A stretch of DNA of 64,000 bases from Natronosalvus halobius (GTDB lineage Archaea; Halobacteriota; Halobacteria; Halobacteriales; Natrialbaceae), in contig NZ_CP099997.1 in assembly GCF_024138145.1 (NCBI RefSeq), forward strand, positions 930,001-994,000. Direction: 5' to 3'. Below, in pieces: positions 46,380-51,389 of this stretch. The translations under genes and the position numbers were made by a program. A model generated the notes under the pieces. That model was given only the letters and a program-made list of their open reading frames with translations, ran no database searches and was not told where the DNA came from. How positions within the stretch are numbered: position 1 is the first letter of the stretch; each line of letters begins with the position of its first letter.

Positions 46380-46727
46380 CTACCTCTCGGCTGGCGATGG
46401 GTCTCCCTCTTCCAGGGAAGTGGCCACACTCGAGTCAAATATCGTCTCGTGGAAGGCGATGACCAGCCCGGGAACGACGGCCATGAACAGGTGTTCCTCG
46501 ATCGGAATACCGCCGATGTCGTAACCCGTTCGCAGTTGAATGTCGAAGACGCCGACCTCGAGCGTGTACCAGTCCCAGAAATAGGCGATTGGATACAGCG
46601 CGATGATCGTGACGGCCGCCCGTTTGAGCGCGCCGGCCCGTCGCAGCAGTACGAACGCGATGGCACCCCAGAAGATCTCCGTCGCGAGGTAGGTGTACCG
46701 GCCGAAGACGGAAATGTCTCGAGCCAT
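46380..46727 (-). CDS. Single-domain lycopene cyclase-like membrane protein
   Basis: A 115-residue protein with three hydrophobic helices and the lycopene cyclase domain motif GGIPIEEHLFMAV, preceded by YFWDWYTLEVGVFDI. True archaeal lycopene cyclases have two such domains in about 230 residues. This one has a single domain, so it is either half of a heterodimer or a related protein with another role. No carotenoid genes adjoin it. The ATG at 46727 is chosen over one 24 bases upstream because MARDISVFGRYTYLATEIFWG is the usual domain start. Confidence 0.8.
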   Translation of the reverse strand: MARDISVFGRYTYLATEIFWGAIAFVLLRRAGALKRAAVTIIALYPIAYFWDWYTLEVGVFDIQLRTGYDIGGIPIEEHLFMAVVPGLVIAFHETIFDSSVATSLEEGDPSPAER

Positions 46728-46829
46728 GTCACGACCAGGACGGCGGTACATAAAAACACCCGGTAGTCACGGGTTACAGGCGCGGGCGGTACGTTAAATA
46801 GTCCAGCGAGAGAAGGGGAAGGTGTAACG

Positions 46830-47987
46830 ATGAATATCGCCGATATCGCCACCACGGAGTACATCGAGGTCGACGTCGGGACGCGAATGGGGAAAGTCCG
46901 TTCGACCTTCGAGGACGGCAACCCCAAGGGGCTGATCGTGACCAACGACGGAGAGTACGCTGGCGTCATCAGCGAGCGCGAGGTACTCCAGTCACACGTC
47001 GAAGACGACGCCAAGGTGGCGGCGTTGATCAAGCCGAGTCGCAACGACCCGGCGCCGAAAGTCGACCGGCACGAGGACGTCAGGGAGGTCGCCCGCATGC
47101 TCGTCGAGGGCAACACCAAGGTCGCACCGGTGTTCGAGGGCGAGAACCTCTGGGGCGTCATCACCGAGGACGACCTGCTCACTGCCGTCCTCGAGAACCT
47201 CGACGCGATCACCGTCGGCGACATCTACACGACCGACCCGATCACGCTCGCGGAGGACGACGGCGTCGGCAAGGCAATCAATCACCTGCGCGAACACGGT
47301 ATCTCCCGGCTCCCCGTGGTCAACGAGAACGGTTACCTGACCGGCGTCGTGACGACCCACGACATCGCCGACTTCGTCATCCGAGAAAACGAGCGCATGA
47401 CGACCGGCGACCGCGTCGGCGACAACGAGCGGATGCTCGACGTGCCGCTCTACGACATCATGAACAGCCCCGTAGTTACCACGACGGCCGACAAGACCGC
47501 TCGAGAGGCCGTCGAAACCATGCTCGAGGACGATTACGCCGGCCTGGTCGTCACGCCCGCAGACGACGACCGACTCATCGAGGGCGTCGTCACCAAGACC
47601 GACGTGCTCCGGGCGCTCACGTTCACCGAGGAAGAGCACATGGACGTCCAGATCACGAACATCTCGCTCATGGACACCATCTCCCGGGAGTCCATCGTCC
47701 AGAGCATCGAACAGGTCTCGGACAAGTACGCGGACATGCGGGTCCACCACGCCCACGTCCGCTTCCACGAGCACAAGGAGAAGCTCCGCGGCACGCCGCT
47801 AATCCAGTGTCAGATCCGCCTCCGAACGAACAAGTCCCAGGTCGCCGGCTCCGGCGAGGGCTACGGCGCGGAGAACTCGTTCAGGGTCGCCCTGGACAAA
47901 CTCGAGCGGAACGTCCTGGAGCTCAAGGGCGTCCGTAGCGACGAGGAGTACCGTGGGCAGTTACTCCGGAAGTTGAACGAACTCTAA
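46830..47987 (+). CDS. CBS-domain protein with S30AE/hibernation-factor-like C-terminus
   Basis: A 385-residue protein. Residues 1-265 hold four CBS repeats (ending pieces such as GVISEREVL, GVITEDDLL, GVVTTHDIA and GVVTKTDVL), which usually bind adenine nucleotides. Residues about 270-365 look like the ribosome-hibernation (S30AE/RaiA) fold. There is a first strand DVQITNISL, a helix SIVQSIEQVSDKY, strands VHHAHVRFHEH and IQCQIRLRTN, then GYGAENSFRVALDKLERNVLELK, matching the AID-KLERQL helix of that family. This suggests an energy-sensing ribosome-binding factor, but that is inference. A TATA-like TTAAATAG lies about 30 bases upstream. Confidence 0.85.
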   Translation: MNIADIATTEYIEVDVGTRMGKVRSTFEDGNPKGLIVTNDGEYAGVISEREVLQSHVEDDAKVAALIKPSRNDPAPKVDRHEDVREVARMLVEGNTKVAPVFEGENLWGVITEDDLLTAVLENLDAITVGDIYTTDPITLAEDDGVGKAINHLREHGISRLPVVNENGYLTGVVTTHDIADFVIRENERMTTGDRVGDNERMLDVPLYDIMNSPVVTTTADKTAREAVETMLEDDYAGLVVTPADDDRLIEGVVTKTDVLRALTFTEEEHMDVQITNISLMDTISRESIVQSIEQVSDKYADMRVHHAHVRFHEHKEKLRGTPLIQCQIRLRTNKSQVAGSGEGYGAENSFRVALDKLERNVLELKGVRSDEEYRGQLLRKLNEL

Positions 47988-48079: not shown

Positions 48080-48778
48080 CTACGGCCGAGCGTCGTCGGC
48101 ACCTTCGAGCCCCGACCCCGTGATCCGGAACGTCGCCGACTCGCCCGCCGGTTTCGAGCGGTGTTTCGTGAGCGTCGCCCGACGATTGCCGGCGCGGAAA
48201 CGCTCGAGGCGGATCACCACGCCCGTCCAGTGCTCCAGGGTGTTCCCCCCGAGTGGGCGCGTCCGGTCGCTATCGGGATCAGCGAACACCTGGTTCGTGA
48301 CGACCACCGCGAGGTCGTGCTTGCGCGCGAGCGAGAGCAGGTGGGTAATCTGGCTGGCCACCTGACGGAGGGCGTCGCCCGCCTCGCCGTCTTCGGCGCG
48401 CTCGATTCGGTAGAAGCCGGTCGCGCTGTCCAGGACGACCAGGTCGGCCTGGGTTGCGAAGTCCGCAGTGTCGCGCACGGCCTCGGCCTGCTCGTCGAAG
48501 TCGTAGGCGTCCTCGATGATGATCCTGGAGGCGACCGACTCGACGTCGTCGGTGCGAGCGGAGAGGAGCTGTTCGAATCGATCGACCGAGACGCCTTCGG
48601 TATCGATGAAGACGGCCGTACCACCGGCGACGGCCGTCTCGACGGCGGCCGACAGCGCGAGGTTCGTCTTCCCCGACGCTGGCGGGCCGTACAGCTGCGT
48701 GACTGCTCCGCGTTCGAACCCGCCCTCGAGCAACGCGTCGACCGGGGGACAGCCGGTCGATATCGCCTCGTCGTTCAC
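48080..48778 (-). CDS. radB: DNA repair and recombination protein RadB
   Basis: A 232-residue RecA-family ATPase, the archaeal RadB paralogue of RadA. Walker A is GPPASGKTNLA near residue 33 and the Walker B region is ADLVVLDSA. VVTNQVFADPD and GGNTLEHWTGVVIRL are the typical RadB/RadA L2-side motifs. RadB assists RadA in recombination. A GTG start at 48778 gives VNDEAISTGCPPVDALLEGG. Longer frames run into the divergent promoter. It is divergent from an RNase H-like protein gene. Confidence 0.93.
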   Translation of the reverse strand: MNDEAISTGCPPVDALLEGGFERGAVTQLYGPPASGKTNLALSAAVETAVAGGTAVFIDTEGVSVDRFEQLLSARTDDVESVASRIIIEDAYDFDEQAEAVRDTADFATQADLVVLDSATGFYRIERAEDGEAGDALRQVASQITHLLSLARKHDLAVVVTNQVFADPDSDRTRPLGGNTLEHWTGVVIRLERFRAGNRRATLTKHRSKPAGESATFRITGSGLEGADDARP

Positions 48779-49795: not shown

Positions 49796-51389
49796 AGGAC
49801 GAACGTTCCGCCCAGAACGCCCGCTCCGCTCGAGCCACGACGGACTGAATCGGCTCACCTGTCTCGGCGGCGACGGCCGCGGCGTCGTCGTACTCCGCGC
49901 TCGCATCGTAGACATCGCCGGCCTCGTCGCTCGCCACCTTGACCGTCACCTCGTAGGCGTCGCCGCCGACTTCGAGACTCACCGTCTCGAACCCGCGCCG
50001 GGCGATCCAGCGGTGGGTGACGCCGGCGTCGCGGATTCCGAGCGTTCCCGTCTCCTCGGCGAGCCTCCGGGCAACGCGTTCCCTGTCGGCGGGTCTGCAG
50101 ATCACCTTGACCAGGTGGCCCGGCCGGGACTTCTTCATGGTGACTGGGCCGATGGAAACGTCTCGAGCGCCCGCGTCCGAGAGCGTCTCCTGGAGGCCGC
50201 CGAGCACTTCGGGGGTCGCGTCGTCGAGATTCGTCTCCAGGACGGCGATGTCCTCGCGCTGGAGGGTCCCGCGAGTCGTCCCGACCAGCGCGCGGAGAAC
50301 GTTCGGGTGCGGATCGAGGTCGTAGCCACCGGCGCCGTAGCCTGCGTTTTCGACGTTCATCGTCGGCAGAGTCTCGATTCCCTCGGCGACGTGGGCAAGG
50401 ATAGCGGCCCCCGTCGGTGTCAGTAGTTCCGCCTCGACCGGGCCGCCGGAGAGTTCCCAGTCGGCCCGCTTTACTATGTCCAGGACGGCTGGGGCGGGGA
50501 TTGGGTACTCGCCGTGGCTCATCGAGACGGTGCCGCCGCCGGCCGAGATGGGTGTCGTGACGACGCGGTCGACCTCGAGGTCGTGTATCAGTAGTACGGT
50601 ACCGACGACGTCCGCGATGGCGTCGTCGGCGCCCACCTCGTGGAAGTGGATCGACTCGATGTCGGTTCCGTGGACGGCGGCCTCCGCTTCGCCGAGTCGT
50701 TCGAAGATGGCGAGGGCGTCGGCTTCGACCGGCTCCTCGAGGCCCATGTTTCGGACGATGTCGCAGACCTCGAGGTAGCTCCGGTGAGGGCCGTGGCCTT
50801 CGGCGTGGACGTGGCCGTCAGCTTCGTGATCGTGATGGTGGTCGTGGTCGTCTCCGTGGCTGTGGTCGTGATGGTGATAGTGGCCGTTTCCGTGGCCGTG
50901 GTCGTGGCTATTATCGGCGGTGTGGTCGTGATAGTGGTCGTGGCTGTTATCGGCGGTGTGGTCGTGGCCGTCTCCGTGGCTGTGGTCGTGATAGTGGTCG
51001 TGGCTATTATCGGCGGTGTGGTCGTGGTCGTGGTCGTTTCTATGGCCGTGGGCATGGCCGTGATCGTCTCCATGGTGATCGCCCGCAACCTCACTTTCGG
51101 AACCTTGCCCGTGCACACCGTCGTCCTTATATTCGTCCCCGCGCTCTACATCGTCGTGACGGGGTGCCTCGATGTGGGCGTCCTGGCTGCTGGAGGTGGG
51201 GATCACGACGTCGACCGTCGTCGCGTGAATTCCACACTTCGAGGTGCGCCCGATACGATACTCGACATCGAGCGCGCGCTCGACAGGTTCGAGGGCCGCC
51301 CGGTCAGCCCCGGCGGCGAGCAGGGCGGCGAGCAGCATGTCGCCGCTTGCGCCCATCCGGCCGTCGAAGGCGAGCAGTCTCCTGGTCAT
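49794..51389 (-). CDS. larC: LarC-family nickel insertion protein with long His-rich insert
   Basis: A 531-residue protein of the LarC (DUF111) family, which inserts nickel into the pincer cofactor of lactate racemase-type enzymes. The start LLAFDGRMGASGDMLLAALLAAGAD and the later HFHEVGADDAIADVVGTVLLIHDLEVDRV and IAVLETNLDDATPEVLGGLQETLSDAGARDVSIGPVTMKKSRPGH are family hallmarks. Residues about 105-202 form a His/Asp-rich insert, with DHTADNSH three times, likely a nickel store. Other lar genes are absent from the window. The ATG at 51389 is used. Confidence 0.92.
   Translation of the reverse strand: MTRRLLAFDGRMGASGDMLLAALLAAGADRAALEPVERALDVEYRIGRTSKCGIHATTVDVVIPTSSSQDAHIEAPRHDDVERGDEYKDDGVHGQGSESEVAGDHHGDDHGHAHGHRNDHDHDHTADNSHDHYHDHSHGDGHDHTADNSHDHYHDHTADNSHDHGHGNGHYHHHDHSHGDDHDHHHDHEADGHVHAEGHGPHRSYLEVCDIVRNMGLEEPVEADALAIFERLGEAEAAVHGTDIESIHFHEVGADDAIADVVGTVLLIHDLEVDRVVTTPISAGGGTVSMSHGEYPIPAPAVLDIVKRADWELSGGPVEAELLTPTGAAILAHVAEGIETLPTMNVENAGYGAGGYDLDPHPNVLRALVGTTRGTLQREDIAVLETNLDDATPEVLGGLQETLSDAGARDVSIGPVTMKKSRPGHLVKVICRPADRERVARRLAEETGTLGIRDAGVTHRWIARRGFETVSLEVGGDAYEVTVKVASDEAGDVYDASAEYDDAAAVAAETGEPIQSVVARAERAFWAERSS
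50904..51026 (-). repeat. 27-base repeat encoding the His-rich stretch of LarC
   Basis: A 27-base unit, identical except for one base, occurs at 50904-50930, 50940-50966 and 51000-51026 (plus-strand coordinates). It encodes HDHTADNSH on the minus strand. The gaps of 9 and 33 bases keep the frame. The repeat makes this part of the gene prone to length change. Confidence 0.85.

Follow-up and report, generated by a model that had tools for sequence, protein, structure and literature searches.

A haloarchaeal protein with four CBS domains and an S30AE domain is very probably an orthologue of the archaeal ribosome hibernation factor HibA

The gene hibA1 of Natronosalvus halobius, which lies in the 64 000-nucleotide stretch of DNA analysed here (the window), very probably encodes the haloarchaeal orthologue of HibA and hence a ribosome hibernation factor (we put the probability at about 0.92). 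The assignment rests on colinearity with Pyrococcus abyssi HibA, which experiments have shown to bind 70S ribosomes and render them inactive: in a phmmer search of PDB sequences, chain H of entry 9SR9, the P. abyssi protein, gave a single alignment covering residues 3–382 of the window protein (HibA1; E = 6.4e-46). A preliminary description of this DNA had proposed a ribosome-hibernation factor from the fusion of CBS domains to an S30AE domain, and the whole-length homology to HibA supports that proposal. The locus has the following parts, given in window positions.

46794–46800, plus strand: TATA-like TTAAATA upstream of hibA1, a candidate read from the sequence by eye
46815–46824, plus strand: Shine–Dalgarno-like GGGGAAGGTG upstream of hibA1, likewise a candidate picked out by eye
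46830–47987, plus strand: hibA1 (ATG start, 385 codons, stop included), very probably a 385-residue ribosome hibernation factor of the HibA family, from its colinearity with P. abyssi HibA in phmmer
46833–47000, plus strand: CBS domain 1, bounds approximate, from the Pfam CBS stretches and the AlphaFold2 secondary structure
47046–47192 (contig 977046–977192), plus strand: CBS domain 2 (PF00571, 32.9 bits)
47214–47378, plus strand: CBS domain 3 (PF00571, 60.4 bits), nucleotide-site residues T175 and D178 present
47388–47441, plus strand: loop after CBS3, residues 187–204, counterpart of the P. abyssi HibA loop 190–207 that enters the peptidyl-transferase centre (PTC)
47454–47618, plus strand: CBS domain 4 (PF00571, 50.1 bits), nucleotide-site residues T255 and D258 present
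47631–47927, plus strand: S30AE (HPF/RaiA-like) domain, residues 268–366, from a sub-threshold PF02482 match, profile search, hhalign and AlphaFold2
47928–47984, plus strand: C-terminal helix beyond S30AE, residues 367–385 (AlphaFold2 helix 370–384), in which SDEEYRGQLLRKLNEL is strongly conserved

A sigma-70 promoter scan at hibA1 found nothing, and the sigma-70 model is not meaningful for an archaeon. The HibA family was published in April 2026 in Nature Communications, from work on heat-loving archaea, as an archaeal hibernation factor (PMC13324472). P. abyssi HibA (Pab0961; PDB 9SR9–9SRF and 9T7H) consists of four CBS domains and an HPF/RaiA-like domain and was seen by cryo-EM in three positions on the 70S ribosome; HibA inhibits translation in extracts and occupies most hibernating-like 70S particles at an abundance like that of ribosomal proteins, and a T. 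barophilus strain lacking hibA has about 60% less 70S in stationary phase and a lag of 4 h in place of 2 h (PMC13324472). HibA1 shares with P. abyssi HibA the domain order, the colinearity over residues 3–382, the length of the loop after CBS3 and the nucleotide-site residues of CBS3 and CBS4, whereas the two sequences are distant, the loop residues are mostly unlike and HibA1 is acidic (pI 4.7), a haloarchaeal composition. A probable haloarchaeal counterpart, from another genus, is HVO_2384 of H. volcanii, described in 2025 as tandem CBS domains with a hibernation-factor domain at the C-terminus, of mass 42 521 Da and pI 4.87 (PMC12607858). The Haloferax profundi orthologue of HibA1, about 67% identical to the window protein, has a mass of 42 355 Da and a pI of 4.89; since these values lie close to the reported ones, HVO_2384 is probably a direct HibA1 orthologue. 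Family, architecture and mechanism are thus already in print and the functional interpretation is not new; with these two papers (PMC13324472; PMC12607858), the earlier view of a little-studied system is outdated.

The S30AE domain falls under the Pfam gathering score for PF02482 (18.0 bits for the full protein and 20.9–21.0 bits for the domain alone, against a cut-off of 23.7), and a PF02482 scan of the genome overlooked it, which marks the limit of that scan. The same model matches 42 of 44 orthologues at E ≤ 0.1 (best 6e-6). When a profile built from 38 archaeal C-terminal domains was run against PDB sequences, the top two matches were HibA-type chains and the next six were all bacterial HPFs (E = 0.00095 to 0.059), three of them constructs of one protein; hhalign against one bacterial HPF sequence gave a probability of 79% and E = 1.6e-5. 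Judged by these sequence comparisons, the weak S30AE match is genuine and not a chance one. AlphaFold2, given a 44-sequence alignment (mean pLDDT 76, with blocks of 69–86 across most of the S30AE domain), predicts strand 272–276, helix 286–298, strands 305–319, 322–333 and 337–345, and helix 347–364, the same order as reported for HPF/RaiA domains. The S30AE C-terminus of the preliminary description, for which it had suggested profile search and structure prediction as checks, is therefore borne out by the retrieval of bacterial HPFs, by hhalign and by the predicted fold order. Its 'final helix' ALDKLERNVLELK does fall within helix 347–364, with which the S30AE fold ends, but is followed by the further predicted helix 370–384. 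Foldseek with a single-sequence model of residues 265–385 returned nothing significant (best E 0.58) and, at a pLDDT of 56, is uninformative; with the full-length model the top 50 hits were all CBS proteins, because the CBS part dominates the local alignment.

In the sub-threshold PF02482 match, 81 residues of the window protein align over 70 S30AE positions, consistent with insertions; the HPF domain of HibA is described as having two insertions specific to archaea (PMC13324472). For the dimerisation domain found at the C-terminus of long HPF there was no Pfam match, and in the AlphaFold2 model one short helix follows S30AE. HibA1 thus resembles bacterial HPF/RaiA (PF02482) in a homologous S30AE domain of matching strand and helix order and differs from it in scoring under the Pfam cut-off and in lacking the long-HPF dimerisation domain. 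To our knowledge, bacterial HPF/RaiA proteins have no CBS module. Dri (Pyrobaculum) and SriA–D (Methanosarcina) are, like HibA1, CBS-module proteins of archaeal ribosomes, and their structures match the N-terminal part of the HibA1 model in Foldseek; they lack the S30AE domain, and Dri has two CBS modules. The presence of S30AE in HibA1 rules out a stand-alone CBS-module factor of the Dri type. Contig positions 2124483–2125304 of the same genome carry a 288-residue open frame whose four CBS domains are not joined to an S30AE domain; its product may be a stand-alone CBS-module factor of CM type.

The four CBS domains of the preliminary description correspond to four Pfam CBS stretches in the N-terminal part, residues ∼ 1–269 (E = 4.4e-42); an NCBIfam search of the protein matched only common CBS domains, all far under their cut-offs. 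Across 61 aligned homologues, D178 and T/S175 of CBS3 are present in 61/61, D258 of CBS4 in 61/61 and T255 in 51/61, while the nucleotide-site residues of CBS1 (S48 and E51, both non-canonical) and CBS2 are degenerate. This pattern fits the single adenine-nucleotide site at the CBS3/CBS4 interface of Pyrococcus HibA, which binds AMP with a Kd of 12 μM, ADP with 65 μM and ATP with 113 μM (PMC13324472). It is accordingly probable that the CBS3/CBS4 interface of HibA1 takes up one adenine nucleotide, with a preference for AMP.

The loop after CBS3 has 22 residues in both HibA1 and P. abyssi HibA. Residues 187–204 align without gaps to 9SR9 chain H (9sr9_H) in the phmmer alignment, and the AlphaFold2 pLDDT is low at 187–197, as for a flexible loop. 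In P. abyssi HibA this loop (190–207) enters the PTC (PMC13324472); its residues are only partly conserved between HibA1 homologues and Pyrococcus.

What is new here is the division of haloarchaeal HibA into two clades, HibA1 near-universal and HibA2 patchy. Of the 195 genomes sampled from the order, 184 carry hibA1 at a threshold of E ≤ 1e-90, as do 154 of the 157 of good quality; within the family it occurs in every one of the 61 genomes sampled, and its own genome has a single copy. One or more paralogues of ∼ 40% identity occur in many relatives' genomes. A maximum-likelihood tree of 61 rows places the window protein in the HibA1 clade (24 rows, support 100/100) and the paralogues, together with the PDB chain 9l96_a (see below), in the HibA2 clade (16 rows, support 100/100), both apart from other archaeal HibA; because the tree is midpoint-rooted and has long outer branches, it does not settle the date of the duplication. 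The paralogues had provisionally been divided into HibA2 and HibA3, a split that was abandoned because the tree mixes both into one clade. HibA2 (∼ 40% identical) is patchy, has a long, glycine-rich loop after CBS3 and is present in multiple copies in some genomes; it is missing from the genome of the window and found in three others of its genus. The loop measures 36–47 residues in the complete HibA2-branch sequences inspected, and the count of 29 obtained for 9l96_a is too low, its sequence having been entered without 18 unaligned residues.

A HibA relative has also been modelled in haloarchaeal ribosomal particles. The 406-residue chain 9l96_a (entries 9l96, 9l98, 9l9c and 9l9v) matches the window protein with E = 1.3e-63 (phmmer), and the genome's own uL14 matches 9l94, 9l95, 9l96, 9l98, 9l9c, 9l9j, 9l9k and 9l9v with E = 8.5e-74 and 132/132 residues aligned, a little better than the classic 50S entries 1FFK and 1S72 of Haloarcula marismortui. 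This ranking identifies them as haloarchaeal ribosomal particles. Searches of the PDB with uS7 and uS12 found no haloarchaeal sequence, which suggests that only the large subunit was modelled; a literature search for a paper on 9l96, 9l98, 9l9c and 9l9v found none. The chain belongs to the same fused family as HibA1, with equal domain order, but to the second clade, and differs in its length of 406 residues and in the long stretch inserted into the loop that follows CBS3.

By homology, we infer that HibA1 acts on ribosomes as the Thermococcales HibA does and that nucleotide state tunes it. On the 30S subunit the S30AE domain would be seated in the channel for mRNA and tRNA; the CBS disk would swing across the 50S side and fill the tRNA sites, and the loop after CBS3 would occupy the PTC. 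Translation would be blocked with HibA1 on the ribosome, and idle 70S would be kept from falling apart and from degradation until growth restarts. A stricter version, in which AMP (or the loss of ATP) at CBS3/4 switches ribosome binding on and so parks ribosomes specifically when energy drops, is conceivable but doubtful: the nucleotide-site residues of CBS3/4 are present in nearly all homologues and Pyrococcus HibA binds AMP better than ADP or ATP, yet the states of reconstituted Pyrococcus complexes hardly differ between AMP and ATP (PMC13324472). The low-energy trigger of the preliminary description is therefore plausible, not established, as AMP and ATP had no clear effect on ribosome binding by Pyrococcus HibA (PMC13324472). 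It is improbable that free 50S subunits are the main target of the haloarchaeal protein, which would then prevent subunit association or serve in storage and not plug the 70S ribosome. That idea draws on the four entries that pair a HibA relative with haloarchaeal uL14, apparently without a small subunit; however, 9l96_a is from the other haloarchaeal clade and its loop is much longer, and HibA1 retains a conserved S30AE domain.

We think it highly unlikely that the protein is primarily a regulator of DNA replication or recombination, partnered with RadB and GINS and linked to the ribosome only secondarily. The suggestion arises from P. abyssi, where Pab0961 (HibA) co-purified with RadB, GINS23 and GAN (PMC3820547), and from gene order: radB (NF006861, 411 bits; window 48080–48775, minus strand, approximate start) lies downstream of and convergent with hibA1, an arrangement kept in 52 of the 74 HibA1 loci for which 3.5 kb of sequence or more was available. 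The radB neighbourhood is noteworthy only because of that co-purification, and ribosomes may come along in pull-downs. Upstream of hibA1 and divergent from it is a small lycopene-cyclase-domain gene (TIGR03462; window 46380–46751, minus strand), which is kept as often (91/126 loci), so that gene order alone says little; the loci counted are related, many coming from one family and some organisms being repeated, and both widely kept neighbours may reflect plain inherited gene order. HibA moreover occupies most hibernating-like 70S at ribosomal-protein-like abundance, and 70S pools fall when hibA is deleted (PMC13324472), which speaks against a mainly DNA-side role. The adjacency and the pull-downs could also both stem from a single partnership: a partner on the DNA side would hold HibA until stress frees it onto ribosomes; we consider this very unlikely, but if true, haloarchaeal HibA1 would tie ribosome hibernation to DNA recombination via RadB.

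Ribosome hibernation shapes how cells survive in dormancy and leave it, and haloarchaea endure long desiccation and starvation. With a near-universal HibA1 and a patchy HibA2 of longer loop, genetically tractable haloarchaea are suited to tests of the CBS signal and of whether the two proteins share the work. Natronorubrum bangense has hibA1 with its neighbours twice, in the chromosome record and in a plasmid record. Elsewhere in the window, 50600–51150 (minus strand) encodes a nickel-insertion (LarC-type) protein with a long His/Asp-rich repeat insert (HDHxHDH...).
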